Position numbers and translations under genes: made by a program. From a virus, in the IMG/VR virus record IMGVR_UViG_3300028025_001937, positions 1-23,448 of that record: 23,448 nucleotides of DNA, one strand, 5' to 3'. Each line of letters begins with the position of its first letter. The stretch's first letter is position 1. Shown in pieces: positions 747 through 17,579 of the stretch. The notes beneath the pieces are model-generated. The model made no database searches. It was not told the origin of the DNA and saw nothing but the letters and a program-made list of their open reading frames with translations.

Positions 747-3700
747 ATGATTGTCACACTGCCCAAAGTAGGGAATGTTGAATTTCCAGACAACCTAAGT
801 CCAGAGCAGTTCGATAATTTAGTCGGCAGACTGGCAGAAAAATACGACTTCAGTCTTCCTAAACCGGATGTTGGTTTGGGTGAGATTGCCAAGCGCGGTG
901 TCATGCGTGGTCTGGGAGAAACGGGTATTGCTCTTGGCGACACCATCCCTGCTATGGTCAGTTCTTTTGTGGGTGGGGACAAAGAGTACGCTGAACGTCA
1001 AATGAAAGAAGCGGAAGCAAGCCGCCAACTTCTACAGCAGAAATACCCAACGCGTTTCAAATCCTATAAAGACATCAACAGTCCGTTTGAGGCACTTGAG
1101 TACGGCGTTGAAACCTTGGGTGAACTCACACCTACTATTGCTACTTCAATAGTTCCCGGTGTAGGGGGTAGTATGTTGGGCGGGCGCTTGGCTGGCGGCG
1201 CGGCTTTCAAGGCGGCTACTGCCGCTGGCGTTCCTACTCGTGCAGGTCTGGCTGGTGTTGAGACTGCCGCAAAAGCTGGTGCGCAAAAGGGCATGTATGG
1301 TGGTGTGTTCATGGGCTCATTTGCTCAAAACGCACCCGAAGTGTTTGAAGGTATATACAGAGAAACTGGCAAGTTCGAGCCCGGTGTTGCCGCCCTAGCA
1401 GGTGGCTTCAGTGCCATATTGGACTCTGTGTTACCTGCTGGCGTGCTTAACTCACTAGGCTCATACGGCAAACTAAAAGTCATTGAGCAGATGGCTAAAG
1501 AGTCTGGTGCCGCACCAAAAGTTTGGAAGTACCTTGGCAAAGAAGTAGCCAAGTCTGCCGCTACTGAAGGGCTTACCGAGAGCGCACAAGAAGCCATCGG
1601 CGCATACGCCACACAAGTTGCTGGCAGTACAAAAGGTTTGCTTGACCCTGAGAACGTACAGAAGTACAAGGAAGCATTTGTTAAAGGTGCTGTGGGTGGT
1701 GCTGGCTTTGGAGTCCCCGGTGGTATAGCCGCCGCTCGTACAGCCAAGAAAGACTATGCAAACACACAAGAAGCCAACGAAGCACTGAAGCAACAGGCCG
1801 CGCAAGAAGAAGCGGCACGACTACAACCTACTGGCTTGCAAAACCAAATCGAAGGTCAGTTCCCAACAGCGGGCAATACGCAAGCTGATATGGAAGCCGC
1901 CCTTGCGGAGAACGATGCACGCAAAGCGCGTGAGATTGAAATCAATGCCTTGCAAGCCCGCATGGATGAGCAACGTCCCGGTTCACGAGCCTACGCTGAC
2001 TTAGAAGACGCAATTAAAAAAGCCAAGGCTAAAGACGCTGACGAAAATGCGGCTAAAGCGTCAGAGAGCGCGTTCGCTACTGCCAAGCCAACACCCGGTA
2101 CGGGCGGCATGTTTATGCCCGGAGTTGAGAAGCAACGCGTTGAGAACAAGATTAGCCAAGAACAAGGTTTACGTGGGTTCGCCTTTGGCGACATGGGTGC
2201 ACAGAACGCACCGAAAGACCCAGTAACAGAGCAAGTTCTCAAAGCCTTGCGTATCCCTGCACGTTCAAACCTTACTACTGAGTTGTTGGGTGTTGACATG
2301 GCTACCCCCGAAGGTGTGCGCAAATTTATACAGACAATGGAAGACCCGCAAAAGACGGGCACCATCAACATCAACGAAGATAACTACCAAAAAGTACTTG
2401 ACAGCCTATATGCTGATGGGCGTGGTGGTGAAGTCGAAGCCGCCCGTGCGGAATTACAAGCGGAGCCTATCTCTGAGAAAACACAGAAGCAACAATCAGC
2501 AACGCGTCAATTCGCCTTTGGAGACATCAATGCTGGACAACCTAACGCCCCAACAAGTGGAGCAGGCACTAGCGTGGCTCCACCACCCGATCAAGAAGGC
2601 ACCGCCACAGGAACTGGAGCACCTACAGGAGCTCGAGTGGTTTCTCCTAAGCCGGATGCTGGACTGCCTACTATCAGAGAAGCTGAACAGTCCGCTACAG
2701 TAAAAGAAACCAAAACTCAACACAAAACAACCTTTGAAGGTAAACCTGCAACGGTAACTATTGTTCGTGATGACACAGGAAAAGTTGTTGATACAAAAGT
2801 AAAAGTTGATGGTGAAAAATTTGCCGCACTAAACCTTGGGGCGCAGGGGGTAGTTACCGATGAACAGCTACTACAAAATTTAACTGATACAGAAATAATA
2901 GGTGGTGAAAATGCGGCTCCTGTTACTGTTGCTACTACTGATACTGCTCCTCTTGTTGTATCTGCTAAGGGACGAAAGGCTACTCCTATCAAGGCTACTG
3001 AGGCTGCCCCTGCCGAAACGGTGGAAGCACAGAATATTGCTAAGGTTAATAAAACTATAAAGTTTGGTGAAGACCTCAAGATTGCCGCTGAGAAATTAGG
3101 CCGCACTGCATCCCTCAAAGGGATGACCGAACTTGCCAAAGACGCTCACGCTTATTTCAGCAAGGTTCTACCTGAGTTGGCGCTTAAAGCGATTGCTAAC
3201 GACTTGGTATATCAGCCTACTGCCTATCGCAATTCCAAAATGAAGTCGTTCAAGGGTGCCCCAGAGATGACATTCGGCACACAAGCCGAGGCTGAGTTTT
3301 TCAAAGGACAAGGCGGTAAACACGCTAAGAACGCCGCACAGTGGGTGCGTCAGAACCTGTCGCCCGAAGCAATCGCATTCATGGACAAGCAGATTGCCCT
3401 GTACGAGAAAGAGAACGCCAGTTCTCAGGTGCACTACTCCAGAATTGATAAACAGCAAGGGGTCAAGAAAGCGACCAAGAAGCAGTTAGCGGATGAGGCT
3501 AAAGAAGCCGCCGCAGACAAGAAGAAAGTTTCTGTACAGAAGACGATTGACGATGTGTACTTTGGCGAAGCCACTGACGACGATTTAAACAACTTCATAA
3601 ACACAGGGCGCGAAGGATACTTCGCATCGCCTGAGACTGCCGCACTGCACGGTGAGGCGCATCCAGTTGTCTTACACATGTTGGAGCGTGGTGATGTTGC

Positions 3701-6700
3701 AGGGGCTCTACAAGCTCTTGCAGATTCCGGTTCTTCTGGTTTGGTACAACGTATTGCTGGTGCTTTGACTAAGTACTTAGGTGATGTGAAATTGGCAGTG
3801 GGCGAAGCCCGCTACGACCCAAAGACAAACACTATCTACTTACCTGCAAACGCCAGCGAGTACGAGATTTTGCATGAGGCCGCTCACGCCGCACTATCAC
3901 ATGTTTTGGCAAACCCATCACACCCGATCACCCGGAAGTTAAACAAACTTTTTGAGCAAATCAAGGGTGATATTGAAGGTGCGTATGGCGCTACAGACTT
4001 GCAAGAGTTTGCCGCTGAAATGTGGAGTAACGAAGTCTTCCGCACGCGCTTGAAAGAAATGCGCACCGAGTCCCCTAACCTGTCAATGTGGGACAAGATT
4101 GTTAACGTCCTGCGTAAATTGATGGGTTACGAGCCAAAGCAAACGAGTGTGGTGGATGCAGTTGACCAGATGCTCAATGCGATTATGGGTGCGCCCCCTG
4201 CCGCACGCTACGGCGAGTCCATGTATGCACAGTCAATCCACAAACCAAACATAGCGCAACAAGTTATGGCTGGTATGGACCACATTATTTCCAATCAGCC
4301 CGCCATGAACAGTGAACGCGCTGTGAAGTTCCTTGCCGCTACCGAACGCATGGGTATCAGTTTCCGTGAGGCTACTCAACGCTTCCTGAACTTGTCTGCT
4401 CTGGGTGAAGTTGGTGAAAAGATATTGGGTAAAGACTCAATGGACTTCGCCCGCTCTGTGGACGGCATGATTGGTTACCGTGAAGAGTTGCGTGCCAAGT
4501 TAAAGCCTATTGCTGACCGTCTAAACAAATACCGTCAGAACGCTAACTATGACGCATGGTCACGCCTTGTGCATGAATCGTCACGCTTGGACGTAAATCC
4601 AGAGGCTCCTATTAGCCAGTACAAAGGTGCGCCTGAGAGGGAAGCAGCCCATCGCCAGTTCTCCGCTGAGTTCAACAAACTCAATGACGAAGAAAAGCAG
4701 TTGTACCGTGACACATTCGGTGCATACCGTGGTTTGTTCAAAGAGTTAAAGGGGTCGTTGTATAGCAGTCTGAAGGAAACTTTTCCTGATGAGAAAGCGG
4801 CACTAAGTGCGTACAACAAGATCATTGACCAAATCACGAAGATGGGCATTGACCACTACGTGCCTCTGTACCGTCAGGGTACTTACTGGTTGACCTACAC
4901 CGACAAGACTAACGATGCCGTATCTAAGTTGTATAACAGCCAAGCTGAACGTGACTTTGCACGCCGCAAGTTAGAAGCAGAAGGTAATACAAACTTTGAT
5001 GAGTTCTCCCGCATTGACCAGTTCACCGTAAAGAATGTTCCACGTGGAACTATGGCGGCTCAGATTGTGAAGATCATGCGTGAGGGCAACGCCGATGATG
5101 AGGCTGTTAATAAGTTCTTGCAGTTAATCGTTGCCGCGATGCCAGAGGCTAGTTTGCTGAAATCTTTCCAAACACGTAAGGGTACGCTTGGTTATGAGAA
5201 CGATGTTGCCTTGGCATTTGGTAATGTGACTCAGAACGTAACCCGCCAGTTGGCTCTGATGCGCTATGGTGATCGTATGCGCCGTTTGGTTAGCAATATG
5301 AAAGAGACCGCCGCAGGTCTACGTGGGCAGAATCAAAACCGTGCAGTTGAATTGATTAACGAGTTTGAAGCACGTCAAGAATACGCTATGAACCCCAAGG
5401 TGTCTGACTGGGCACGCTATGCAAGTACTGGCGCGTTCTACTTCAACTTGGCTGGTAACGCATCATCTGCCGTGGTCAACACGTTGCAAACCCCTATGAT
5501 TGTTTACCCGCTTTTGTCGGGTAAGTATGGCTGGGCAAACTCAGGTCGTGCATTGTTGGCGGCATTGCAGTTATATAGAACCAGCGGTGCCAAGCGCGAA
5601 GTAATTGATATTAACGGCAACAAGTCCATGCAAGATAGTTGGTTGGAAGTTGGCCTATCTATCGACAACGCAGTCAGTATGGGCAAATCCCCGCAGTATG
5701 CCGCCTTGATGCAAAGGCTCAAAGACCTTGGGTTCCTGCAAACATCAACAGCTTATGACGCGTTGGATGTAAACGACAGGCCCGGAAAAGAACTTGATAA
5801 GACTGGAAACTTAGCGCACAAAACTGCGGTTATTTCCACATACATGTTCCATCATGCCGAGCGTATGAACCGTGAAATCACGGCAGTTGCCGCCTATGAG
5901 TTGGAGATGGGACGCCTCAAGAATAACAAGAAGTTGTCCGATGCCGAGAAGCAAGCGCAGGCTATTGAAGAAGCCATCAAAATGGTTACCTTTGCGCATG
6001 GTGCTGGTCATACTGAATCTGGGCCCAGCATCGGTCAGTCAGACATAGGTAAAGTTCTTACTGTGTTTAAGCGGTTTGGCTTCACCATGTACTACATGTT
6101 GTTCAACACCATGAACCGTGCGCTGCCAGTTAAAGGTGCCACAGGACAACAACTTGAGGAAATACAAGCCGCCCGTCGCCAGTTGTTAGGCGTATACGGC
6201 ACTGCCGCATTGTTTGCTGGGGTTAAGGGTTTACCCATGTATTGGATTATGGAAGCCGCCTACAACGCGCTTAATGATGACGACGAGGATGACTTTGATA
6301 CCGTCATGCGTAAATATCTTGGTGAGTTTGCGTTTAAGGGCCCAATCAACTACATCACGAACCTCGGCATTGCTGACCGTGTGGGTTGGACTGACTTAAT
6401 CTACCGTGAAAACAAGGGCGGTAAAGCAGACGCTAGTGCGTTGAGCCAAATTACCGAGGCGATATTTGGCGCACCATATGCCATAGTAAACAACATGTTC
6501 CGTGCGGCTGAACTGGCTAACGATGGGCACATGGAGCGTGCCATCGAGACTGCCCTACCTATTGCGTTACGTAACGTACTCAAGGGTGTTCGCTATGCCA
6601 CTGAGGGTGTAAATACTCTACGCGGTGACCCAGTGATGGGTGATGTGAATGGATACAACGCAGCTATGCAGGTCTTAGGTTTCGCACCTGCTGACTTGTT

Positions 6701-7004
6701 GGCACAGTATGAGATTAACGCTATTGCCAAGAAGCAAGGTGACGTGATTACCAAAGAAGAGCAGTCCTTGCTCAAGAAGTACTACGTTGCCCAGCGTGAA
6801 GGTGACTTTGAGCGTGCGGATAAGTTGGAAGAAAAACTGTTTGAGTTGGGCGATAAGTATCCCGAACTAAAAATAACAGGCAACACTCTCAACAAGTCTG
6901 TCAAGGCACGGGACAAAATTTCCGAAGACATGTACCACGGGGTGCAGTTGAACAAGAAGTTGCGCCCTCTCATCGAGCAGTCAATCCACGAACTGGAAGC
7001 CTAA
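747..7004 (+). CDS. Giant polyvalent/internal virion protein with HExxH metallopeptidase domain
   Basis: A 2085-residue protein; ATG has AAGG eight bases upstream. Residues 1-45 carry a short module (VEFPDNLSPEQFDNLV) of a type common at the N-terminus of phage ejection proteins. Residues about 48-335 are Gly/Ala-rich and hydrophobic (VPGVGGSMLGGRLAGGAAF) and could contact membrane. Residues about 340-830 are linker-like, with two copies of an FAFGD...NAP segment at 478 and 589. A zinc peptidase lies at about 960-1150: HEAAH gives H1043, E1044 and H1047, and E1087 or E1091 in LQEFAAEMW is the likely third ligand. The remaining roughly 900 residues are mainly helical, with an aromatic segment near 1780 (FTMYYMLFNTMNRALP). 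The architecture fits phage polyvalent proteins with LPD-type domains, injected with the DNA or lining the ejection channel. The peptidase may process virion or host proteins; the target is unknown. Confidence 0.85.
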   Translation: MIVTLPKVGNVEFPDNLSPEQFDNLVGRLAEKYDFSLPKPDVGLGEIAKRGVMRGLGETGIALGDTIPAMVSSFVGGDKEYAERQMKEAEASRQLLQQKYPTRFKSYKDINSPFEALEYGVETLGELTPTIATSIVPGVGGSMLGGRLAGGAAFKAATAAGVPTRAGLAGVETAAKAGAQKGMYGGVFMGSFAQNAPEVFEGIYRETGKFEPGVAALAGGFSAILDSVLPAGVLNSLGSYGKLKVIEQMAKESGAAPKVWKYLGKEVAKSAATEGLTESAQEAIGAYATQVAGSTKGLLDPENVQKYKEAFVKGAVGGAGFGVPGGIAAARTAKKDYANTQEANEALKQQAAQEEAARLQPTGLQNQIEGQFPTAGNTQADMEAALAENDARKAREIEINALQARMDEQRPGSRAYADLEDAIKKAKAKDADENAAKASESAFATAKPTPGTGGMFMPGVEKQRVENKISQEQGLRGFAFGDMGAQNAPKDPVTEQVLKALRIPARSNLTTELLGVDMATPEGVRKFIQTMEDPQKTGTININEDNYQKVLDSLYADGRGGEVEAARAELQAEPISEKTQKQQSATRQFAFGDINAGQPNAPTSGAGTSVAPPPDQEGTATGTGAPTGARVVSPKPDAGLPTIREAEQSATVKETKTQHKTTFEGKPATVTIVRDDTGKVVDTKVKVDGEKFAALNLGAQGVVTDEQLLQNLTDTEIIGGENAAPVTVATTDTAPLVVSAKGRKATPIKATEAAPAETVEAQNIAKVNKTIKFGEDLKIAAEKLGRTASLKGMTELAKDAHAYFSKVLPELALKAIANDLVYQPTAYRNSKMKSFKGAPEMTFGTQAEAEFFKGQGGKHAKNAAQWVRQNLSPEAIAFMDKQIALYEKENASSQVHYSRIDKQQGVKKATKKQLADEAKEAAADKKKVSVQKTIDDVYFGEATDDDLNNFINTGREGYFASPETAALHGEAHPVVLHMLERGDVAGALQALADSGSSGLVQRIAGALTKYLGDVKLAVGEARYDPKTNTIYLPANASEYEILHEAAHAALSHVLANPSHPITRKLNKLFEQIKGDIEGAYGATDLQEFAAEMWSNEVFRTRLKEMRTESPNLSMWDKIVNVLRKLMGYEPKQTSVVDAVDQMLNAIMGAPPAARYGESMYAQSIHKPNIAQQVMAGMDHIISNQPAMNSERAVKFLAATERMGISFREATQRFLNLSALGEVGEKILGKDSMDFARSVDGMIGYREELRAKLKPIADRLNKYRQNANYDAWSRLVHESSRLDVNPEAPISQYKGAPEREAAHRQFSAEFNKLNDEEKQLYRDTFGAYRGLFKELKGSLYSSLKETFPDEKAALSAYNKIIDQITKMGIDHYVPLYRQGTYWLTYTDKTNDAVSKLYNSQAERDFARRKLEAEGNTNFDEFSRIDQFTVKNVPRGTMAAQIVKIMREGNADDEAVNKFLQLIVAAMPEASLLKSFQTRKGTLGYENDVALAFGNVTQNVTRQLALMRYGDRMRRLVSNMKETAAGLRGQNQNRAVELINEFEARQEYAMNPKVSDWARYASTGAFYFNLAGNASSAVVNTLQTPMIVYPLLSGKYGWANSGRALLAALQLYRTSGAKREVIDINGNKSMQDSWLEVGLSIDNAVSMGKSPQYAALMQRLKDLGFLQTSTAYDALDVNDRPGKELDKTGNLAHKTAVISTYMFHHAERMNREITAVAAYELEMGRLKNNKKLSDAEKQAQAIEEAIKMVTFAHGAGHTESGPSIGQSDIGKVLTVFKRFGFTMYYMLFNTMNRALPVKGATGQQLEEIQAARRQLLGVYGTAALFAGVKGLPMYWIMEAAYNALNDDDEDDFDTVMRKYLGEFAFKGPINYITNLGIADRVGWTDLIYRENKGGKADASALSQITEAIFGAPYAIVNNMFRAAELANDGHMERAIETALPIALRNVLKGVRYATEGVNTLRGDPVMGDVNGYNAAMQVLGFAPADLLAQYEINAIAKKQGDVITKEEQSLLKKYYVAQREGDFERADKLEEKLFELGDKYPELKITGNTLNKSVKARDKISEDMYHGVQLNKKLRPLIEQSIHELEA

Positions 7005-7036
7005 AGAAAAAAACCCCCCAACTTTTGGTCGGGGGG
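7005..7036 (-). terminator. Intrinsic terminator of the minus-strand replication operon
   Basis: A run of six C (7014-7019) pairs with six G (7031-7036), with two more pairs possible inside. Read on the minus strand, the hairpin is followed at once by seven T, a C and more T, the standard Rho-independent pattern. On the plus strand it is followed by CTAGGAGAAGG with no U-tract, so it should stop mainly leftward transcription. It sits one base after the giant gene's stop codon, between convergent genes. Confidence 0.85.
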
Positions 7037-7098
7037 CTAGGAGAAGGCAACTACAAAGGAGAGAGGAGATCAGTTGCTAGGCGAACTCTAACACAAGA

Positions 7099-7302
7099 TC
7101 ATTTGACACGCCAGAACCTCACTCCATGCGTAGTGCCTTCGACACAAAAACGAAACTTGACTTTCATGCCCCGTTCCTTCGCGGCAGTGTCTATTTCATC
7201 TGATAACACGTTAGGTGTTAACGTCGGTATATAGAACGAGCTGCCGACTACGAATTTATGCCATTCAATAACAACGGGTACGTTGCTATTATAAATCGTC
7301 AT
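7099..7302 (-). CDS. Small protein of unknown function at the end of the replication operon
   Basis: A 67-residue protein of mixed aliphatic and aromatic content, basic at the end (RFCVEGTTHGVRFWRVK). ATG overlaps the last 14 bases of the primase-helicase gene in another frame, with no clear Shine-Dalgarno, so translation is probably coupled. I recognise no family. The pattern VIEWHKFVVGSSFYIPTL looks like beta strands and the gene lies correctly between the last operon gene and the terminator. An overlapping plus-strand frame here runs through the terminator and is not credible. Confidence 0.65.
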   Translation of the reverse strand: MTIYNSNVPVVIEWHKFVVGSSFYIPTLTPNVLSDEIDTAAKERGMKVKFRFCVEGTTHGVRFWRVK

Positions 7303-10162
7303 CGCTAGGAGCGGGTACAGGAGTGCTATCTTCGGGGTCTAGGGCTGTTGCTTTTGCGCAATCAATCACCAATGCACTCACGGGTGGTGTGGACATTGCA
7401 GACCCACGCGACATGGCTTTCTTCAAAGTCCCGATGCAAGCACCCATCTTGTACAGGTCGTCCACCAGCCCTTTGTAAGAGACTTGGTTCTCGCTACACC
7501 ACTCACGCAAGAGTTTCACCGTCACAAACAAGTGCTTGGTGTCAGGCTCATAGCGGGTGATGAGTTCACCACGGGGTTCTCGTATTGGCGCTTCGGTAAG
7601 CCCTGAGCGTTTGTCCACCGTGCTGTTGATGACCAGCATATTGTTGTTGTGCTCATTAAGAAATAATCCCATGTGCGCTAAAGGACCCGATATTCCCGGG
7701 CGTACTTCAACCCGCATCCTGCCAATAGTTTGTACAGCCCATGCGTAAATGTTTTCTACGGCGATGTTATGCAAACCTAGTTTCTTGGTAATCAAACCAG
7801 CAGTCAGGGCACATGCGGCAGTAGCAGACCAAAACCGCTCACGCTGAGTGAGGCCAGCCGCTTTGTCAAACTTACGCTGGATTTTCTCCAACAACTTCTT
7901 GACTTCGGGCAGGTTGGCAATCACGTAGCGTATGAAGACTTCACCAGCCACGCCGTAGTTGTCGTACATAGCGTTGAACGCGCTATCAGATTCAGCCTTG
8001 GACATGTCATCAGTCTTGGAGACATTGAACTCCAGTATCCGCATCAACTCACCTTCGGGGAAGTCCTTCAAGTTGTACAACTGGTCGTACAGACTCTTGT
8101 TACCCGACGTAATCGCAATCATCGCCCAGCGCAACATGTTGCTTCGTTCAGCGTTAACTTGGGACATCATACGGTTGCGTCCCCTACCATGCGTAATGCC
8201 ATACGCCATGTTGCTAACCTCTTCGTCAGCCATGTTGGTCAGTTCGTCAATCGTCACCGAGATGTTGCCAAGCACAGAGATGCGGTGCATACGAGCCAAG
8301 TACTTATCTTCTTGGTTCATCAGGGTTTCCAATGGACGCCCCCAAATGCTGTTGACCATGTGCTGAATAGTTGTCTTACCCACGCCTGAGCCGTTGTTGG
8401 TCAGGTGAATAATCGAGCCACTTAGTTTGGTAAACTTGAACAGGGCAGAGCCAAAACCAGCGAACAGGGTGAACGCACGGACTTCATTACCTTCACGGGC
8501 GTAGTTGTTAGCCACTTTAGACCACTCGTGTAGCGTGCCCTTCTTTGTGTACATCGTCGCTAACTCTGCGGTTGCTTGCGACGACGGGCTGTAGTTCACC
8601 CCTGCGGCAGTTATCTCACGGTTGCCAACTACAAACTTCGTGTCGTCCTCACACCATCCAAACTGTTGCCGTGCTTTCTCAGCCTCTGCAAGTTGTTGCA
8701 ATTCACCTACCCAACGGGTTACATAAGCCATAAGTCCATCCAATTTCTTGTTGTATGCAGTCACGCCTTGAAAAGCAATGACTTCCCTAAATCTGTCTTT
8801 CGACAAGACGCTTGCTAACGGCGCAGAGAATTCCCGTATGCCGTCTTTGGGCATATGCAAGCGCATCCATAAAGATTCACCAGCATCAGGGTCAGTTAGC
8901 CTCTTGACCACGTAGAAGTCGTATTCATAAATGAGGTGGTCGCGTTCTTCTTCTGTCTCCTCATCGTCTTTCTTTTTGGCTTTCTCAGAAGGCAAGCCAC
9001 GCTTGTAGACCCCACCGTTCTTCCCACGAAAGTATGGGAACGGATACTCAGGAATCTCAACCGTAATGTCTTCTTCCAGCGTAGCGTTGCGCATCACCAC
9101 GATGTTGTCTTCTGCCGTAGCCGCCGCGATTTGTGACCCAATCTGTATGGGCGATGTAATCTTGTTGCGGTTCGGACAGTCGGTGCACCCTGTGGAGTTT
9201 AGGCTGTGAAATGTTGCGCACTTATAAGGCTTACCAAATAGGGCATCTGCCTTTACCTTGGTGTCCTGTGGGTCGTACTCCTCATGGGCATGAGAAATCT
9301 TGTGGATTGCCAACTCACCGTCTTCACAGTTAATGGCGATAGATAGCCCCGCTCTCCACAAAGGCTCTTCAACATCTTGCTGGTTGCGGTATATATGCAC
9401 GAGCTGCGCACAACCTTTACCTTCCGCACTCTTACGCATGATTGTCCCAAAGCGGGATATGCTGTTTCCCATCAAGGCGCGAGTGGTTGCATCTATTGGT
9501 CGGCGTTGCGTGGGCACCGCGAAACCAAGTTCGTTGTTGACTTCTTCCTCAGTACCCGCACCGACAATCGCTTGGAATCGGGAGAACTCCATAGCGCCAG
9601 AAGAAACCAGCACATCAACTCGTGACGGTGGGGAATCTTTATGGTTGAGTGTTTCGGGAATACGTAGGATACGAGCCGCATCTGCGGTCACCGCAGGGTC
9701 AGCCTTTAGGTCGTAAGCCGCACAAAACTTCTTGAACGCTTCAGCCGATGGCTTCCAATCGTTGTAGAAAATTGCTTTGGTCAGTGTCCAGTAGGCGTGT
9801 ACGCCACGGCCTGAGTTCACTATCGTTGGGCGTGGTAGCCCTGTGTCCTTAACAAACTGCTTGAGTGCATCTAAAGCAACGGCTTGTGTTTCGTAAGGTT
9901 TATTCTCACCGCAGTCTAAGTCAACCCAAAAGGCTTTGAACCATTTTGCGTTTTGTGCGGTACGCCCTTCTGAGGCGTTTAAATATTTAGCACATCCAAA
10001 GTACGCGTCGTACCCCTGTGCTAACAGCCCTTCTACTACACCATCTATTTCTTCAATCGTCTCTACAAAAGTTTGCCTCGGGGCACCTTTCTTTAGTCCC
10101 ACCACACAGTACATGCCTTCGTCGGCAAGCACGGAGGAGAGAAAGGGAATCCTTGAGGTCAT
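7289..10162 (-). CDS. Primase-helicase: AEP/RepB-type primase fused to DUF927-type ATPase
   Basis: A 957-residue replication protein that should lay primers and unwind DNA. The N-terminal third has archaeo-eukaryotic primase motifs: the D-x-D pair in FWVDLDCG (D81, D83), NSGRGVHAYW with H122, and DPAV..DAARILRIPETLNHK around 155-175. A possible metal site follows: C315, H319, C326, C329. After an acidic/basic linker (396-408) comes a DUF927-like helicase core: NNGSGVGKTT at 589-598 (K596), VTIDE as Walker B (D639, E640), GRGRNR near 660 and a sensor-like IAITSGN near 682-688. Family matches are recalled from motif patterns. It lies between a Cro-like gene and a small terminal gene, in the promoter-to-terminator unit with the ssDNA-binding-like gene. 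The Shine-Dalgarno is weak (AAGAG). Confidence in primase plus helicase is high, less in exact family names. Confidence 0.88.
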   Translation of the reverse strand: MTSRIPFLSSVLADEGMYCVVGLKKGAPRQTFVETIEEIDGVVEGLLAQGYDAYFGCAKYLNASEGRTAQNAKWFKAFWVDLDCGENKPYETQAVALDALKQFVKDTGLPRPTIVNSGRGVHAYWTLTKAIFYNDWKPSAEAFKKFCAAYDLKADPAVTADAARILRIPETLNHKDSPPSRVDVLVSSGAMEFSRFQAIVGAGTEEEVNNELGFAVPTQRRPIDATTRALMGNSISRFGTIMRKSAEGKGCAQLVHIYRNQQDVEEPLWRAGLSIAINCEDGELAIHKISHAHEEYDPQDTKVKADALFGKPYKCATFHSLNSTGCTDCPNRNKITSPIQIGSQIAAATAEDNIVVMRNATLEEDITVEIPEYPFPYFRGKNGGVYKRGLPSEKAKKKDDEETEEERDHLIYEYDFYVVKRLTDPDAGESLWMRLHMPKDGIREFSAPLASVLSKDRFREVIAFQGVTAYNKKLDGLMAYVTRWVGELQQLAEAEKARQQFGWCEDDTKFVVGNREITAAGVNYSPSSQATAELATMYTKKGTLHEWSKVANNYAREGNEVRAFTLFAGFGSALFKFTKLSGSIIHLTNNGSGVGKTTIQHMVNSIWGRPLETLMNQEDKYLARMHRISVLGNISVTIDELTNMADEEVSNMAYGITHGRGRNRMMSQVNAERSNMLRWAMIAITSGNKSLYDQLYNLKDFPEGELMRILEFNVSKTDDMSKAESDSAFNAMYDNYGVAGEVFIRYVIANLPEVKKLLEKIQRKFDKAAGLTQRERFWSATAACALTAGLITKKLGLHNIAVENIYAWAVQTIGRMRVEVRPGISGPLAHMGLFLNEHNNNMLVINSTVDKRSGLTEAPIREPRGELITRYEPDTKHLFVTVKLLREWCSENQVSYKGLVDDLYKMGACIGTLKKAMSRGSAMSTPPVSALVIDCAKATALDPEDSTPVPAPSDDDL

Positions 10163-11788: not shown

Positions 11789-11979
11789 ATAGTTTCTCCT
11801 ATGGTTGGTTTGGTTTGGGTATTTGTCATGGCGTCGAGGTCTGCACGTTTAATGCGTACCTTTGTTCCAACTTTGAAGTGTGGGATTTTTCCCTCACGTA
11901 TCAGGGTGTAGACTGTTTGTCGGGAAACCCGCAAGTATTTTGCGACCTCCAAAACAGTCAGGGTTGTTTCAGCTTCCAC
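11785..11979 (-). CDS. Excisionase-family (HTH_17/MerR-like) DNA-binding protein
   Basis: A 64-residue protein with the classical short excisionase/AlpA-type DNA-binding domain: LTVLEVAKYLRVSRQTVYTL followed by the wing IREGKIPHFKVGTKVRIKRADLD. It starts at GTG with a strong AAGGAGA site and overlaps the previous gene by 11 bases and the next by four (ATGA). No integrase is seen here, so a role as transcription or replication regulator is more likely than excision. It is the second gene after the operon promoter and could act on the TTGACA repeats there, but that is inference. Confidence 0.85.
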   Translation of the reverse strand: MEAETTLTVLEVAKYLRVSRQTVYTLIREGKIPHFKVGTKVRIKRADLDAMTNTQTKPTIGETI

Positions 11980-12376
11980 TTGTGCTTCTCCTTACAGTAA
12001 CTGAGTATTTGCTATCTACATTGACGCCCGGGGGCATCAGGTCAGGGTTCTCATCCAAAAGTTGTTTCAGTGTGGCTTGACTAATGCGCTTTTCCAAAAG
12101 GTCAGGCATTTGGTGTTCCAAAATGAATTTGTGCATGGATGCCCAATCACTTGTCCAGTAGCGGGTTTTGACACCACGCATAACCGTACCGTGCTTGGTC
12201 TTGAGGCTATCGGCACCGACGGTCTTGCAGAGGTCAAGTAACTTGCTCTCCACCATTTCCATCTGTGCTTTCACCGCACCGTCTTCTTCTTCGTAACCAC
12301 GTAGAAGTTCGGCTCTCTTGTCGCGCATCTTTATGTAGACGGCGACGAGTTTGTCGGCTGAAATGTCTTCAGTCAT
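11969..12376 (-). CDS. Small coiled-coil protein, possibly Gam-like nuclease inhibitor
   Basis: A 135-residue protein, the first gene after the operon promoter, starting at ATG with a GAAGGAGAG site. Residues 1-50 form a charged helix (YIKMRDKRAELLRGYEEEDG). The second half has a compact pattern: GTVMRGVKTRYWTSDWASMH, then PDLLEKRISQATLKQLLDEN and NPDLMPPGVNVDSKYSVTVR. A helix followed by a small sheet with tryptophans resembles host-nuclease inhibitors of the Gam type that protect phage DNA ends. That comparison is weak and rests on general shape. The position as first gene of a replication operon fits a protein needed early. Confidence 0.7.
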   Translation of the reverse strand: MTEDISADKLVAVYIKMRDKRAELLRGYEEEDGAVKAQMEMVESKLLDLCKTVGADSLKTKHGTVMRGVKTRYWTSDWASMHKFILEHQMPDLLEKRISQATLKQLLDENPDLMPPGVNVDSKYSVTVRRSTSGS

Positions 12377-12405: not shown

Positions 12406-12443
12406 ATCATACCGCTAAATTTAACATTGTCAAGTATTGTCAA
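12406..12443 (-). promoter_or_regulatory. Sigma-70-like promoter with tandem TTGACA boxes
   Basis: On the minus strand TTGACA (12433-12428) is followed by a 16-base spacer and TATGAT (12411-12406), five of six bases of the -10 consensus. A second TTGACA lies exactly 10 bases upstream (12443-12438), making a TTGACAAT direct repeat with one helical turn spacing. The upstream box overlaps the helicase stop codon. Transcription would start near 12399, giving a leader of about 22 bases to the first ATG. The repeat may be an operator or an alternative -35. Confidence 0.8.
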
Positions 12444-13987
12444 CTCAGTATTTCCCCGTATAGGTCAATAATTTTGTGGTGAATATCGACTTTGTTATTC
12501 AACATGGTGTACATGCGGCGTTCTACACCACTACCCTGCAAGTGCACTACAACTGATGGGTTCTTCTGCCCTGCCCTATGGACTCGTGCGTTGCATTGCA
12601 AATATGTCTCTACGGACATTACCGGACTCCAATACACAATCGTGTTTGCGGCATGTAGGGTGACCCCGTGTGACGCCGCTTGCGGTTGTATGACTAACAC
12701 TTGTGGGCTGTCAGTCGTTTGGAATCTCTCAAAAATTTCTGTGCGTTTGCTTGCGGATACCCCGCCGTGAATGACTGCGGTCGCGTAGCCGTGCTTCTTT
12801 AAGTCTTCGGACACAACTTCAATCGCATGTCTGAACGGCACGAACACCAGCACCTTGTGGCTAGACTCTTCAATAACTTCTCGTAGGACAGCAAGGCGGT
12901 TGCTTGCATCGAACTGCACAACTTCGCCTGTATCGGAATACACCGCACCACCTGATAGTTGCAGTAACTTATTGAGGTTAGCGGCGGCGTTGACTGTTGT
13001 TATCTCTTCACCAGCCGCTTGCACGATTAGTTGTCGGCGGAGTAACTCGTAGTATTTCTCTTGCTGTGCGGTAAGCGGTACGTCTCGCGTTACGTAGGTC
13101 ATCTCAGGTAAATCTAAGCATTGCTCTTTCGTAAAACGTATTGCGGGTTGTAGTGCTCTGTATACCGTGTCGTTCGCATCGGGCTTGGGCACCCACTTGA
13201 ACTGCGTGACTTTGTTCATCACTTGGTCTCTGAACCCACCAAAGAATCGAGGGATATTGTTGGGGTTAACTAACTTCGCTATGCCATAAGCATCTACTGG
13301 AGACTGTGAGGCGGGCGTTCCTGTCAACATCCATAGCCATGTGGTCGGTTGGAGTAATTTACTCAGGATTTTCCAACGCTTCGTCTGAGGATTTTTGTAG
13401 GCGTTTGCCTCATCAATCACGATTAAATCAAAGCCACCCTGTGCAACGGCTTCCGCTACGATTTCTAAACCGTCGTAGTTAATGATGACGAACTCTGCAT
13501 CACCCTTAATAATTTCTCTGCGTTTCTCAGGCTTGCCATACGCGACGTCTACTCTGCGGTGCATCGCAAATCTAAACAAGTCATTACGCCATGCCGAGTC
13601 CATGATGGACAAGGGGCAGATTACAAGCACGCGCTTGATAATCTTTTGCGTCATTAGATAGTCTGCCGACCATATAACACTAGCCGTTTTGCCTGTGCCC
13701 TGTTCGTTGAAACAGAACGCACGGCGGTGCATGGTTAGAAAAGACGATGTAACTTTTTGATGGTCGAATGGTTTGTAGAGCCCCGGCCACTTGTACGTTC
13801 CATTGATAGGTGACGGTACGTTGATACGTAAGTTCTTCAGCACTAGGGTCTCTTCCAAGCCCCAGTTCACCAACACACTTGCTGAGTTCTCATCTCTCTC
13901 CAACACCTTGCTCTTTGGAATCACCGTAGTGATTCTGTCGGGGTGTTTTACCTTGAGCAATATTGCTCTGTTCTCAATAATCTCCAT
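12440..13987 (-). CDS. SNF2/DEAD-like superfamily 2 helicase
   Basis: A 515-residue ATP-dependent DNA helicase or translocase. The start is ATG with GGAGAGAG directly upstream; a GTG 60 bases earlier lies inside a hairpin and is rejected. SF2 motifs appear in order: DHQ near 75 (Q-motif region), NEQGTGKT (K100) as Walker A, VLVICPLSIMD as Ia, VIDEAN (192-195) as Walker B, LTGTPAS (222-225) as III, VFVPFRHAIEV as IV, IQPQAASHGVTLHAAN as V and QCNARVHRAGQK (464-475) with arginine fingers as VI. Short phage SNF2 proteins of this length act in replication or recombination. It follows a 200-base non-coding gap, and the promoter of the next operon lies at its 3' end. Confidence 0.93.
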   Translation of the reverse strand: MEIIENRAILLKVKHPDRITTVIPKSKVLERDENSASVLVNWGLEETLVLKNLRINVPSPINGTYKWPGLYKPFDHQKVTSSFLTMHRRAFCFNEQGTGKTASVIWSADYLMTQKIIKRVLVICPLSIMDSAWRNDLFRFAMHRRVDVAYGKPEKRREIIKGDAEFVIINYDGLEIVAEAVAQGGFDLIVIDEANAYKNPQTKRWKILSKLLQPTTWLWMLTGTPASQSPVDAYGIAKLVNPNNIPRFFGGFRDQVMNKVTQFKWVPKPDANDTVYRALQPAIRFTKEQCLDLPEMTYVTRDVPLTAQQEKYYELLRRQLIVQAAGEEITTVNAAANLNKLLQLSGGAVYSDTGEVVQFDASNRLAVLREVIEESSHKVLVFVPFRHAIEVVSEDLKKHGYATAVIHGGVSASKRTEIFERFQTTDSPQVLVIQPQAASHGVTLHAANTIVYWSPVMSVETYLQCNARVHRAGQKNPSVVVHLQGSGVERRMYTMLNNKVDIHHKIIDLYGEILS

Positions 13988-14190
13988 GCTCTCTCCGATT
14001 GTTATGCACTCCAAACACGGTCTGTGTTTAGAGGAAATTGGCGGCACCTTGCGGGTGCCATTCGGTTAAATCACCTATCCTCAGAAAGGGGTCGATAGGC
14101 TCTAACTGGTGCGGTTTTCGTTTCCATGAAGGGATTGACAGCCCTCGCGCCCCTACCACTCACACCTAACCTTGGGGCGCACTAACAACT
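13988..14190. other. Non-coding, stem-loop-rich region; candidate structured RNA leader or replication origin
   Basis: The longest non-coding stretch in the minus-strand gene block, between the HNH-like gene and the SNF2 helicase. It holds inverted repeats: AAACAC/GTGTTT (14013-14018 with 14024-14029), GGCACC/GGTGCC (14043-14048 with 14054-14059), CCTATC/GATAGG (14074-14079 with 14094-14099), a weak 4-bp AGGG/CCCT (14130-14145), and GCGCCCC/GGGGCGC (14147-14153 with 14174-14180). I see no promoter, U-tract terminator or tRNA cloverleaf. It may be a 5' leader controlling helicase translation, or a replication origin beside helicase genes. Confidence 0.6.
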
Positions 14191-14451
14191 TTATTTCATT
14201 GACTTGTCTGAATTCCTTTTGAACGAACGATTCTTTGCGGGGGCTTGCAAGGTGTAACCCTCTTTGTTAGTGCCACCCTTACTCAGCGCAACCTTGTGGG
14301 CAACATCTTTACCCTTGCGGTCTACACCCTTCTTGTCCAGCGCACGTCTAGCGCGTTGACGTTCCATGCGTGCTTCGTGTGCACCCGCACGTTTCTTTTC
14401 CAGTTCCCACTCATGCTTGGCATCGCGGTCTGATTTGTTTTTGTATGTCAT
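14191..14451 (-). CDS. Small basic HNH-like protein
   Basis: An 86-residue, very basic protein. The first half is a charged helix (KHEWELEKKRAGAHEARMER). The second half reads KDVAHKVALSKGGTNKEGYT then QAPAKNRSFKRN, which follows the pattern of HNH endonuclease cores (H, then GG-x-N, then a later N-R), but the final catalytic histidine is not evident. It may be a degenerate or unusual HNH protein, or a nucleic-acid-binding protein. ATG overlaps the nuclease gene's stop by one base (TAATG) and has a GGAAGGA site upstream. It is the last gene before the non-coding gap. Confidence 0.68.
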   Translation of the reverse strand: MTYKNKSDRDAKHEWELEKKRAGAHEARMERQRARRALDKKGVDRKGKDVAHKVALSKGGTNKEGYTLQAPAKNRSFKRNSDKSMK

Positions 14452-15137
14452 TACTCATTCCTTCCATTGTGTGGACATATAAGCACGGGACACCATGCTT
14501 TACATGTGAAATTTTTCTTTGGATTAAACACGCCTGACTCGTATGCTGTTTCACGGGTCACCAACGTATCGTCCAGTTGTGCAAATATGTTAAGCCCAGT
14601 AGCCACCTTGTACTGCGCCCTGATGAAGTCACCCACCACGACAAACAGTAGCCCACCCTTCACAGTCTCTATCTCAGGGAAATGCACGAATATGCAAGCC
14701 GCCATTAGTGCAAGTTGTTTAGGGTCAGCGTACTTACTGCTCTTGCCCGTCTTGTAGTCAACTACACGGGCTTCTTTCTTTTCTTTGTTGATGACGATTA
14801 GGTCAGCAACGCCACGATACCAAACATCTTTATCAAAGAAACCGCAAGGTACAAGGCGTCCATCTTCTTTCTTGATGCCCATCTTGAGTTCACAATGCTT
14901 CTCGCCTTTCATGTTCTTCAACACGTCCAACATCGGCAATATGTAGTCGTACTTTGCGGGTAGTGGTTTGTCATCCCGTATGTAGTGCTCTGCGGCAGAG
15001 TGCAAGTCTTTGCCGTACATCATCGCGTCGCTCTCAGGTTCCTTGATGTCCTTTGCCACTCGCAAGTGGTAATATTTTTTAGGGCACTGGTCGAACAGCG
15101 TGATGCTCGAGTAACTCCATGCGGGTGCTTTGTTCAT
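14451..15137 (-). CDS. Cas4/RecB-like PD-(D/E)XK nuclease with Fe-S cysteines
   Basis: A 228-residue nuclease. The start at ATG 15137 overlaps the previous stop (TAATG) and has GAGG ten bases upstream; a TTG nine codons earlier is less likely. The N-terminus has SYSSITLFDQCPKKYY with C18. The nuclease core has H46 in GKDLHSAAEH, D112 in GVADLIVI and D127-x-K129 in ARVVDYKTG. The end has C212, C216 and C221 (FTCKAWCPVLICPHNG). One early cysteine plus three at the C-terminus is the 4Fe-4S layout of Cas4 and AddB-type exonucleases. It likely processes DNA ends in phage recombination-dependent replication. No CRISPR array or Cas1/Cas2 is present, so there is no link to adaptation here. Confidence 0.88.
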   Translation of the reverse strand: MNKAPAWSYSSITLFDQCPKKYYHLRVAKDIKEPESDAMMYGKDLHSAAEHYIRDDKPLPAKYDYILPMLDVLKNMKGEKHCELKMGIKKEDGRLVPCGFFDKDVWYRGVADLIVINKEKKEARVVDYKTGKSSKYADPKQLALMAACIFVHFPEIETVKGGLLFVVVGDFIRAQYKVATGLNIFAQLDDTLVTRETAYESGVFNPKKNFTCKAWCPVLICPHNGRNE

Positions 15138-15298
15138 TAGTTTGTTGCCTCGATGTGAACCCAACGCATTACAGTTTCATCGTAAATCATTGTTGGCATT
15201 ACGGGATGCGTAATAACTATTTCATTCGCGGCAGTAAGCACCATCTCGGTCTTCTCATCGTACCCAAGCGGGAACGTGGTAATAGGTTGCGGTGTCAT
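15137..15298 (-). CDS. 53-residue protein of unknown function between polymerase and nuclease
   Basis: A complete short reading frame (begins MTPQPITTFPLGYDEKTEM, ends WVHIEATN). Its ATG follows the polymerase stop directly (TAAATG), with GGAG eight bases before it inside the polymerase tail. Its stop overlaps the nuclease start by one base (TAATG). It fills the gap exactly, with spacing typical of the other genes. The sequence looks beta-rich (EIVITHPVMPTMIYDETVM). No family recognised. Confidence 0.75.
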   Translation of the reverse strand: MTPQPITTFPLGYDEKTEMVLTAANEIVITHPVMPTMIYDETVMRWVHIEATN

Positions 15299-17131
15299 TT
15301 AACAATCTCCATAACTATCTCCATAGCCAGCCTCACAATTTAATGGTATGCCTTTCGCCCAGTCGGGTACATAGCGCATACAGTCCATCACGTATTGCTT
15401 GGCTTCTTCGGCCTCTTCTTTTGGAGCAACACATGCCACAGCATCGTGAACAGTAAGCACGACACGGTATCTCTTTGCAATTCTCAACATCTGTTCGCCA
15501 ATGATGCAACGTGCCAAACCCTGACAAACGTTCTCTGTCAACTTGCCACCATACAGTTTTACTATGCCCTTGCGGGAGTCATAGACGTACTGCGTCTTGC
15601 CTTGGTCGTCCACCATTTTTCGCAAGTTTGGATACCGTTGGTACAAACCGTTAGGCATGAGGATACCATCTTTATGTATCTCAATGCAACCGTTGCCCCA
15701 CTTGGTTGTTTGCCCGTTTGCTAGAGCAGTAATCGCCGTGGAGCCTGCTTGCCATAGGGCGGGAATATAGGGGTAGGTTTCTCGATAGGTTTTGATAATC
15801 CCTGCGGCTTCTCCCTCAGTAACTGTGACGTCAAACGTCTTGAGTTGCGCTTGGAACTTCGTACCGCCCATGCCATAACCCGCTCCAAGAATTGTGGTTT
15901 TACCCACAAACCGTTCGGGGTTCGCCTTAGTATCCAAGACTTCTTCGATGGGCTTGCGGTAAATCTGCGATGCCATGATTTTGTATACGTCCTCGCCATT
16001 TGCAAATGCCTCCATTAAGTCTGTTTGTCCCGCGAACCAAGCAAGCACACGGGCTTCAATCTGCGATGAGTCGCAGTCAATAATCACATGCCCTTCGGGG
16101 GCTAGGATTGCGTTCTTCAGTACCCCTGCGTTCTCGCCACGTGAGGGAAAGTTTTGGAAATTAAGTTTGTCCGACCCACCCCACCGTCCCGTGTGTGCGG
16201 CGTAGTATGAGAGGGGTACAGGTATCAGTCCTCTTGTGGCAATCCCAATCAACCGCTCGGTGCGCGTTTCTTCAAGCGTAGTCTTATTGCCAAGCCGTGC
16301 GGCAACAACTGCTTGCACACGTATATCTTTGTGGTCAGCCATCGCCTTGAACTCTTCGTCGTTCTTAGCCAGTGCAAGCGTCTCCTTGCCCGTAGTTGGG
16401 CTTATCTTCATAGGCGGTTCGACGCCTAACTTGCGTAGAACTTCTGCAAACTTCTTGTTGGACATTAAATCTTCGATAGAACAACCGGCTGCTGCAAGTG
16501 ACTTAGCCTTCCTATCACGTACTTGTACAAGATGCTTTTCAAGTAGCCCCGGATCGAGCCTCAAAACTGGTTCTGTAAACATCCTGATAGTTGTATCAAT
16601 CAACTTCAACTCCACCATCTTGAATGAAGGCAGTAGTGTTCGGAATAAGTCGTAGGTAAGTGCTACGTCGTTCTTACAGTAGTCACCATACGCATCAAGT
16701 TGTCGCGTTGTGAAGTCCTCGCGCTTCAAGTCAATAGCCGTGACAACTTCTCTACCCTTGACGCCAAGCCCATAGTGCACAGCCAACTTCTCAAGACTGC
16801 CACCCACCTCAGTGCCATGCACGGCACGCGCCATGCTCAACGTGTCACCAATAGCCATAGGTTTTATGTTGTAGTGCCAACTTAGGATTGCCATATCGAA
16901 CATGGCATTGTGTGCAACCGCCATGCTGTTAGCCCAGTCGAATCGTTTTAGGAACTCGTAGGTCTGCATGTAGTCACCACTGAACCACTCAGGCTTGCCA
17001 CCATCCACTTGCACCGACACACCAATCACATGGAATCGCGGGTCACGCACATACTCCTCAGTGGTCTGCTTCTTGAACCCTAAGTCCCCACTGGTGTAGT
17101 ACGTCTCAAAATCTACGGTCAATACGTTCAT
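15299..17131 (-). CDS. polA-like: Family A DNA polymerase with 3'-5' exonuclease domain
   Basis: A 610-residue replicative DNA polymerase, close to the size of phage family A enzymes without a 5'-3' exonuclease domain. The chosen ATG starts MNVLTVDFETYY, putting the ExoI residues D7 and E9 at the very N-terminus; the frame stays open 20 codons upstream, inside the sigma gene. ExoII is VAHNAMFD (D79) and ExoIII is YCKND (Y151, D155). The polymerase part has HTGRWGG, motif A DSSQIEAR (D354, E359, R361), motif B with R407, K411 and YG at 419, and motif C VHDA (H562, D563). Motif C usually reads HDE; here the third residue is Ala. It overlaps the sigma-like gene by 26 bases with a weak AAAG-type site. 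Confidence 0.95.
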   Translation of the reverse strand: MNVLTVDFETYYTSGDLGFKKQTTEEYVRDPRFHVIGVSVQVDGGKPEWFSGDYMQTYEFLKRFDWANSMAVAHNAMFDMAILSWHYNIKPMAIGDTLSMARAVHGTEVGGSLEKLAVHYGLGVKGREVVTAIDLKREDFTTRQLDAYGDYCKNDVALTYDLFRTLLPSFKMVELKLIDTTIRMFTEPVLRLDPGLLEKHLVQVRDRKAKSLAAAGCSIEDLMSNKKFAEVLRKLGVEPPMKISPTTGKETLALAKNDEEFKAMADHKDIRVQAVVAARLGNKTTLEETRTERLIGIATRGLIPVPLSYYAAHTGRWGGSDKLNFQNFPSRGENAGVLKNAILAPEGHVIIDCDSSQIEARVLAWFAGQTDLMEAFANGEDVYKIMASQIYRKPIEEVLDTKANPERFVGKTTILGAGYGMGGTKFQAQLKTFDVTVTEGEAAGIIKTYRETYPYIPALWQAGSTAITALANGQTTKWGNGCIEIHKDGILMPNGLYQRYPNLRKMVDDQGKTQYVYDSRKGIVKLYGGKLTENVCQGLARCIIGEQMLRIAKRYRVVLTVHDAVACVAPKEEAEEAKQYVMDCMRYVPDWAKGIPLNCEAGYGDSYGDC

Positions 17132-17579
17132 GCGTTCTTTTCTTTCTATTAGTTGGTTCGTAGCAGTCTTCGGGCGCAAAGACTTCTGCAAGTTTAAGTT
17201 CGGGGTGCTTCAGTTTGCGTATTGCTTTCATCTCAATTTGTCGAATACGCTCCTTTGTTAGGTCATACATCCCTGCTATCTCATCAAGCGTATGGTCACA
17301 TTCAAGTCCAATACCAAATCTAAAGCGCAACACTTTGGATTCTCTAGGTGTCAGCACATCTAGCAGTTCTTGTACAAACGCTGAGACTTCTTTCCTGTAC
17401 AACTCTTCTTCGGGGCACTCATACTCTGTGTATCGTGGTGGCGGGCATGGCAACTCAGGAAACTCATCGTCATTTTTATACCCGCCGTAGTAGGCTTGGC
17501 GCAGTTCATAACCAGCATTTACCATCGTGCCGTAGGGTATGGTGTGCCCCTTGTTTATTTTGCCGTAGGGTCTAGCCAT
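17106..17579 (-). CDS. Sigma-70 region-4-only transcription factor
   Basis: A 157-residue protein. Residues about 65-128 are a clear sigma-70 region 4: VLTPRESKVLRFRFGIG, then HTLDEIAGMYDLTKERIRQI and MKAIRKLKHP. This is the domain that contacts the -35 element and the RNA polymerase beta flap. The N-terminal 60 residues are Tyr/Pro-rich and acidic, with no region 2 (no -10 melting motif). The C-terminus is basic (NRKKRTHERIDRRF). It may divert host polymerase, act with host sigma, or work as an activator for phage promoters. It lies just ahead of the polymerase gene, overlapping it by 26 bases and a 23-codon frame by eight. Assignment of region 4 is secure; the role is inference. Confidence 0.9.
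   Translation of the reverse strand: MARPYGKINKGHTIPYGTMVNAGYELRQAYYGGYKNDDEFPELPCPPPRYTEYECPEEELYRKEVSAFVQELLDVLTPRESKVLRFRFGIGLECDHTLDEIAGMYDLTKERIRQIEMKAIRKLKHPELKLAEVFAPEDCYEPTNRKKRTHERIDRRF

Follow-up and report, generated by a model that had tools for sequence, protein, structure and literature searches.

A Family of Phage Proteins Joining Sigma70 Region 4 to a Lineage-Specific N-Terminal Module

A virus fragment of 23,448 bases (the whole stretch that was analysed, called the window in the following) carries in its replication arm a short gene whose product is, judged by sequence comparison, a free sigma70 region 4 preceded by the last part of the 3.2 linker and fused to an N-terminal module specific to its lineage. 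Proteins with region 4 and this module, which we call the PYGT module, form a phage family as defined by their alignments. The protein probably helps the phage to steer the host RNA polymerase, and our tentative reading is that it may compete with region 4 of the host sigma70 at the beta flap and the -35 element and so shift transcription from the replication arm to the structural arm. The coordinates of the features are collected in Table 1.

Table 1. Features of the window that bear on the region 4 protein, with their positions and supporting evidence.
Feature	Position	Strand	Evidence or remark
DUF927-domain protein, 957 aa, far end of replication arm	7289–10162	-	Pfam DUF927 2.2e-26; synteny
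Ordinary sigma70 promoter TTGACA-16-TATGAT, 11/12	12406–12433	-	Conserved, upstream of gene 11969–12376
Upstream TTGACA box, formerly proposed target	12438–12443	-	Not conserved
SNF2-type helicase, conserved neighbour	12440–13993	-	Pfam 2.1e-23; synteny
PD-(D/E)XK exonuclease, conserved neighbour	14451–15164	-	Pfam 3.2e-13; synteny
DNA polymerase family A	15299–17131	-	Pfam DNA_pol_A 5.4e-37; PHROG 17, 7e-93
Region-4-only protein, 157 aa	17106–17579	-	ATG at 17579; its phage family numbers at least 63 distinct sequences
Variable C-terminal tail, residues 135–157	17109–17177	-	Family alignments
End of sigma 3.2 linker and regions 4.1 and 4.2, residues 49–134	17178–17435	-	hhalign, fold superposition
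Conserved N-terminal module, residues 1–48, not sigma-related	17436–17579	-	KG.TIPYGTL..AS.EL..AYY..GY..D...PELP

Results

The original prediction had read a strong sigma-70 region 4 in this open reading frame, leaving its strand unstated, and the Pfam search of the whole 157-residue protein bears this out, with Sigma70_r4 at residues 72–125 (E 9.5e-17) and no other Pfam family above cut-off among the matches listed to E 10. NCBIfam models of RpoD type align to residues ~52–128, and the best match to RpoD chains in the PDB covers residues 52–127 (phmmer, E 9.3e-19). When the profile of the 63-member family was compared with sigma factors by hhalign, the homology was confined to residues 49–134 (probability 99.9%, E 2.8e-33), the aligned part of sigma running from the end of the 3.2 linker through regions 4.1 and 4.2 to slightly beyond them. 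The fold predicted with 61 sequences (pLDDT 70.2, pTM 0.44; an earlier one with 22 sequences was poor, pLDDT 59.4) points the same way: residues 50–134 superpose on residues 525–608 of sigma70 (VIA Z 11.0, 84 aligned, rmsd 2.4), and Foldseek with the predicted fold reached a best E of 3.2e-6. Residues 1–48 are hardly tested by the rows of this superposition; their predicted fold is not confident and contains a single helix of at least four residues (24–30). According to the alignments, the C-terminal tail is swapped in many relatives for an extension of ~100 residues, which gave no significant Pfam match in the one member tested (L009). The full-length profile of MzaA, from the anti-phage MZA system, matches region 4 only, with 85 bits against a cut-off of 800, and the PADLOC profile of MzaA aligns only to residues 64–125; neither identifies the protein as MzaA.

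Neither region 2 nor region 3 was found in the protein by Pfam at E up to 10, and in profile–profile comparison residues 1–56 and 1–66 matched sigma regions 1.2–3 and the C-terminal 200 residues of sigma with a probability below 1%, so that neither approach supports a region 2 or 3 inside the N-terminal part. With the whole-protein profile, the part that aligns to region 3 is residues 81–115, which are region 4, at just 12%. A sigma finger (region 3.2) suspected by eye within residues 30–56 was unsupported by the profile comparison. That region 4 stands here without region 2 had been claimed from the start, with a profile search for region 2 named beforehand as able to overturn it; such a search found no region 2 in the N-terminal part, and at the level of genomes PF04542 (E up to 1) was absent from all seven family contigs, the probably complete G001 included, in a search that could miss a strongly diverged region 2 such as that of gp55. 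The one PF04542 match among ten records, in G008, is an ordinary full sigma factor outside the family. Region 4 itself gave exactly one match in each of nine records, seven of them family contigs. The lack of an RNA polymerase gene, also stated there, is supported: beta' (PF00623) was missing from all 11 records searched, seven of which are family contigs, as was the T7-type enzyme (PF00940; 0 of 11 records) in a search run without a positive control. No gp55-like or sigma partner came to light among ten scanned replication-arm proteins, whose PHROG matches (E up to 0.01) include neither a sigma factor nor a regulator; seven of the ten matched no PHROG at all at this threshold.

The stretch that had been described as Tyr/Pro-rich at the N-terminus is present and conserved across the family in the alignments. 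Of the 25 viral loci obtained in a first search, 12 (L001–L012) share the N-terminal part. With this part as the sole query, the best 80 of 85 viral loci gave 64 distinct proteins, and 63 of these carry region 4, the remaining one being a product of 32 aa that ends at a contig edge. Among 61 aligned sequences, the invariant positions include P15, Y16, G17, L26, Y30, D37, P41, E42 and P44 in the module and R87, G89, I90, E100, I112, E116 and P126 in region 4. In the closer pairs, purifying selection acts on each half; between the window and L003, for example, dN and dS are 0.079 and 0.365 in the N-terminal part and 0.047 and 0.269 in the region 4 part.

Outside the family the module has no detected relatives. 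Residues 1–54 gave no Pfam match at E up to 10, none of 13 members matched a PHROG, nothing in the PDB was significant (best E 0.38) and nothing was found among sequenced phages (best E ~1). None of 43 matches in bacterial genomes extends to residues 1–23, in a search sensitive to close relatives only, and none of the 88 phage records with a match covers 80% of the query. Two open reading frames near the DNA polymerase of the phage RHph_TM3_14A, inspected by eye as candidates for the module, are not it. The best match in the viral structure library is A0A6J5S254 (BFVD, from an uncultured Caudovirales phage; E 2e-11, 52% identity over 124 columns), a protein of 136 aa annotated as 'Sigma70_r4 domain containing protein', which evidently belongs to the same family, judged by the overlap of this match. 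Short region 4 proteins of phages already exist as database annotations, and in the literature, covered by titles and abstract openings with few subscription journals included, we found no description of a free region 4 of this kind.

The residues through which region 4 would read DNA were counted in 63 sequences, namely the window and 62 others, with duplicates removed, L200 and L223 (ended by contig edges) omitted and L205 (without its first residues) kept; the E. coli sigma70 numbering was taken from the phmmer alignment to the RpoD chains of the PDB. At R584, E585, R588 and Q589, which we take to be the sigma70 positions contacting -35 DNA, conservation is high: R588 and Q589 are each retained in 62/63, E585 in 58/63, and position 584 is R in 49/63 and K in 7/63, the window having K. 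The nearby basic positions behave similarly, with K at 593 in 48/63, R at 596 in 62/63 and K at 599 in 52/63, and region 4.1 and the linker helix are likewise conserved.

The adjacency to the phage DNA polymerase was also seen as described, the family A polymerase gene overlapping the 3' end of the region 4 gene by 26 bases, with a start at 17131 that is inferred from the PHROG 17 alignment. The wider setting is best seen in G001 (64,917 bases), which is probably complete because its ends are identical over 127 bp, and which is laid out as two divergent arms, one for replication and one for structure. The structural arm is marked by the terminase large subunit, portal, major head protein and a DarB-like protein (the latter scanned in the window); its first gene matches no PHROG (E up to 0.001), and the label 'TerS' that we used for it is by position only. 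In ten of ten genomes region 4 lies in the replication arm, together with DNA polymerase A, the PD-(D/E)XK nuclease, the SNF2 helicase and the DUF927 protein. Where it stands with respect to the polymerase differs between loci: in the 21 of 27 that also show the polymerase gene, region 4 overlaps the polymerase 3' end in 15, overlaps the 5' end as in the window in two (L001, L002) and lies farther away in four (L003, L005, L102, L118). Proteins that had been given labels such as MoxR and VWA match an ATPase and an HNH endonuclease in PHROG. Isolates with related DNA polymerases do exist (KPP25, phiA008, Rollin and RHph_TM3_14A), and the gene tables of RHph_TM3_14A and KPP25 contain a related replication set. 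None of the four has a region 4 above cut-off, KPP25 giving a sub-threshold match over 25 positions (E 0.004), so in such phages the job of the protein would be done otherwise or is dispensable.

Promoters were counted in the ten genomes that have the first structural-arm gene, region 4 and the DUF927 gene; the first of these was unmatched in seven of 14 further contigs, and G023, where it matched, was left uncounted. The replication arms hold 26 sense sigma70 promoters with at least 11/12 consensus positions vs 2.05 expected, and the structural arms hold one vs 4.0 expected, where the expected values are means of 20 first-order resamplings and the counts are not independent, as the ten genomes are related. 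Three further 11/12 promoters (G017, G024, G025) are antisense promoters within the replication arm, being on the structural strand, and were counted in neither arm. In G001, G002, G004 and G005 the replication arm has two conserved TTGACA promoters. Upstream of the first structural gene the best promoter score is 8–10/12 and never includes a full TTGACA, the candidate of G005, for example, reaching 10/12 with TTAACA; where the structural-arm promoter would lie is a guess from -10-like sequences, and a 'CCCC-TATA' late -10 motif proved valid for one sub-group only. The contrast is not simply one of arm against arm, because the head of the replication arm is also without a near-consensus promoter: the gene for a 175-aa protein that heads it has a best promoter of 7 or 8/12 in all six genomes where it was found, and the strong sigma70 promoters sit deeper in the arm.

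The two TTGACA boxes at 12428–12443 had been proposed as the target of the protein, and the comparison of loci gives this proposal no support. The downstream box (12428–12433) belongs to a sigma70 promoter, and together with a -10 partner (TATGAT, TATTAT or TATAAT) it is kept in 7/7 aligned loci. The upstream box overlaps the helicase stop codon and is found only in the window and in the near-identical G001; G002 has TTAACA, and in G004, G005, L006 and L004 the box is absent in this register, L004 having CTGACA in another. Since the pair is not conserved, tandem TTGACA boxes were rejected as an operator of the protein. TTGACA is also not enriched in the window (15 found vs 20.1 expected), and other TTGAC-N4-6-TTGAC pairs number three in 13 sequences (one in G003 and two in G004), all within open reading frames. 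Of the earlier interpretation, what stands is a region-4-only protein, with no region 2 in the family contigs either, and what lacks support is the TTGACA pair as its target.

A different element is found at a fixed place before the structural arm. The pattern A[CG]ACCCCCC, which was picked after inspecting these very upstream regions, occurs on the late strand 91–212 bp upstream of the first structural gene match in 10/10 genomes, which contain two other sites between them. G023 has it ~106 bp upstream of this match, plus two other sites, and none of the four isolates lacking region 4 contains it. Of seven family contigs with no match to the first structural gene, one (G012) has the pattern, on the region 4 strand, and G003, which was not tested for that gene, has one site, also on the region 4 strand. 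Over 14 records there were 11 matches to the pattern and five to its reversed control, so that single sites mean little and it is the fixed place that stands out. The element may belong to late control, or it may just as well be a signal for packaging or replication.

Discussion

Three roles had been suggested for the protein: recruiting RNA polymerase to -35-like sites, displacing host region 4 from the flap, or serving as an activator. Near-universal retention of the -35-contact residues, taken with the split of promoters between the arms, makes the first two plausible. In the course of events that we tentatively propose, the protein would be made from the sigma70-dependent replication arm and would dock on the host RNA polymerase via the beta-flap tip, on -35 DNA, or on both, as sigma region 4 does. 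There it would compete with region 4 of the host sigma70, initiation would fall at the TTGACA promoters of early phage genes and host genes, and polymerase would be left for, or directed to, a structural-arm promoter that lacks a good -35 box. The N-terminal module would be a second contact, on RNA polymerase or on another phage protein. This competition is weakened as a model by the head of the replication arm, with its lack of a near-consensus promoter, and region 4 on its own, with no region 2 attached, may be a weak binder.

A blocker of the flap alone would not need conserved -35-contact residues, and the protein may therefore simply bind DNA. This is the main rival, a plain regulator that uses the helix-turn-helix of region 4 to bind TTGACA-like DNA and acts as a repressor or activator of promoters with no docking on the beta flap; it is a possibility, and we consider it rather doubtful. 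The nearly invariant contact residues and the two conserved TTGACA promoters in the replication arms of four genomes (G001, G002, G004, G005) speak for it, whereas the conservation of region 4.1 and the linker helix goes beyond what reading DNA alone would need, and the tandem TTGACA site is not conserved. It is unlikely that the protein serves host shut-off only, titrating either the beta flap or the contacts that host sigma70 makes with the -35 element, with an effect like that of P7 or AsiA and with no choice of late promoters. Interference at the contact of region 4 and beta flap is a known phage strategy (PMC3985653, in the part drawn on here) and the gene sits in the replication arm; however, that arm has the same TTGACA promoters, so full shut-off would harm the phage itself, and the N-terminal module would be left unexplained. 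We think it very unlikely that the helix-turn-helix has a role in replicating DNA or in coupling transcription to replication, as its place among the replication genes and its overlaps with the polymerase gene (the start in the window, the 3' end in 15/21 loci) might suggest, for the sequence is of the RNA polymerase-associated region 4 type with its promoter-contact residues retained, and the position relative to the polymerase gene varies.

Two readings give the protein a part in a composite sigma factor. In one, which strikes us as quite improbable, it is one half of a split sigma whose region 2 comes from another protein, of the phage or of the host, the pair acting as a late sigma in the manner of SigO-RsoA or T4 gp55-gp33. 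Such factors exist (PMC8103513 and PMC7892883, in the parts used here), the structural arm is without near-consensus sigma70 promoters, and seven of the ten scanned replication-arm proteins have no PHROG match (E up to 0.01); the absence of PF04542 at E up to 1 from all seven family contigs, G001 included, stands against it, with the proviso that divergence like that of gp55 could escape. In the other, about which we are scarcely less sceptical, the free region 4 and its tether in a lytic lineage would replace host region 4 while host region 2 is kept, giving a chimeric holoenzyme from two sources that recognises, in a control region of the structural arm without a -35 box, a conserved RAACACCCCCCG-like element, and so drives the switch from replication to structure. 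That the reversed-pattern control also matched weakens this reading. Against these alternatives, competition with host sigma70 region 4 is the reading that we carry forward, at the tentative strength given above.

The protein resembles region 4 of RpoD-type sigma70 in sequence and predicted fold over residues 49–134, with the -35-contact residues kept, and it differs from such a sigma factor in that regions 1.2, 2 and 3 are undetected and an N-terminal module of its own stands in front. The same combination of region 4 without region 2 on viral contigs is seen in six proteins (L013, L015, L017, L025, L131, L134), in which, however, the N-terminal part looks like an XRE-type helix-turn-helix (clear only in L015, with HTH_3 3.8e-10; the others by eye) and not like the PYGT module; an XRE-like helix-turn-helix was not found in residues 1–54 of the present protein by Pfam (E up to 10) or in 13 members by PHROG.

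Phages that seize the host RNA polymerase often target the contact of region 4 with the beta flap, using proteins unrelated to region 4. To our knowledge, neither P7 of Xp10 nor AsiA of T4 is a region 4 homologue. Both share with the present protein a possible target in this contact, regulators aimed at it being a known kind in phages, and P7 displaces sigma70 by way of the beta' N-terminus and the flap (PMC3985653, in part). With the late co-activator gp33 of T4 the possible similarity is one of use, a phage protein holding the beta-flap tip at the seat of region 4. In the portion of PMC7892883 drawn on here, gp33 clamps the flap-tip helix while being structurally unrelated to sigma region 4, and binds no DNA alone, yet contacts upstream DNA in the complex; the present protein, by contrast, is a true region 4 by its alignments, with DNA-contact residues and with no region 2 partner found. 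In SigO-RsoA, regions 2 and 4 are on separate proteins (PMC8103513, in part; the split is worded differently in the table of PMC10141391, also used in part), and the present region 4 is likewise separate from a region 2, but no partner carrying one was found (PF04542, 0/7 family contigs).

Conclusions

In the phage collection searched, no isolate of the lineage that carries this family was found. The family would open a first way into gene control in a lineage represented by many viral metagenome contigs. A true region 4 that comes without region 2 and with a module of its own would, if it is used in the way proposed here, allow one to ask directly whether a working holoenzyme can have its region 4 exchanged in trans.

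Candidate control elements ahead of the structural arm

In all 10 genomes, the region ahead of the first structural-arm gene contains an element resembling RAACACCCCCCG, lying 91-212 bp upstream of that gene. The search pattern was chosen after inspection of these upstream regions, and across 14 records it gave 11 matches vs 5 for the reversed-pattern control. The element may act as a signal for late control, for packaging or for replication. Upstream of the same gene in four viral genomes (G004, G005, G016 and G018), a TATATT -10-like box is followed just downstream by the perfect palindrome GTGTACAC, which is possibly an operator.

Features of the window and of a related genome
Feature	Position	Strand	Support
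2085-aa protein, DarB-like antirestriction match in C-terminal part	747-7004	+	PHROG 10089, 2.4e-68
Hairpin resembling intrinsic terminator, 11 pairs	7012-7038	-	
Excisionase-like helix-turn-helix protein, 64 aa	11785-11979	-	conserved in five related records
Match to PHROG 13900 "minor head protein"	11969-12376	-	1.3e-21
RAACACCCCCCG-like element (outside window)	G001:42779-42787	-	same place in other genomes

Architecture of region-4 proteins

Some region-4 proteins (L006, L009, L104, L161 and others) have an extension of about 100 residues C-terminal to region 4, with the conserved motif W...P...D..W...L....P.MYQELK; the window's protein is without it. A second architecture lacking region 2, in which an XRE-like N-terminal part is fused to region 4, was seen in six viral loci (L013, L015, L017, L025, L131 and L134) and in L086, from a proteobacterial MAG, with HTH_3 clear only in L015 and the other loci judged by eye.

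Arm convergence and replication-arm genes

The terminator-like hairpin sits where the replication and structural arms converge. The gene with the minor head protein match lies in the replication arm, directly behind the conserved sigma70 promoter, an odd location for a head protein. The excisionase-like protein, kept in G001, G002, G004, G005 and L006, is a candidate further regulator.
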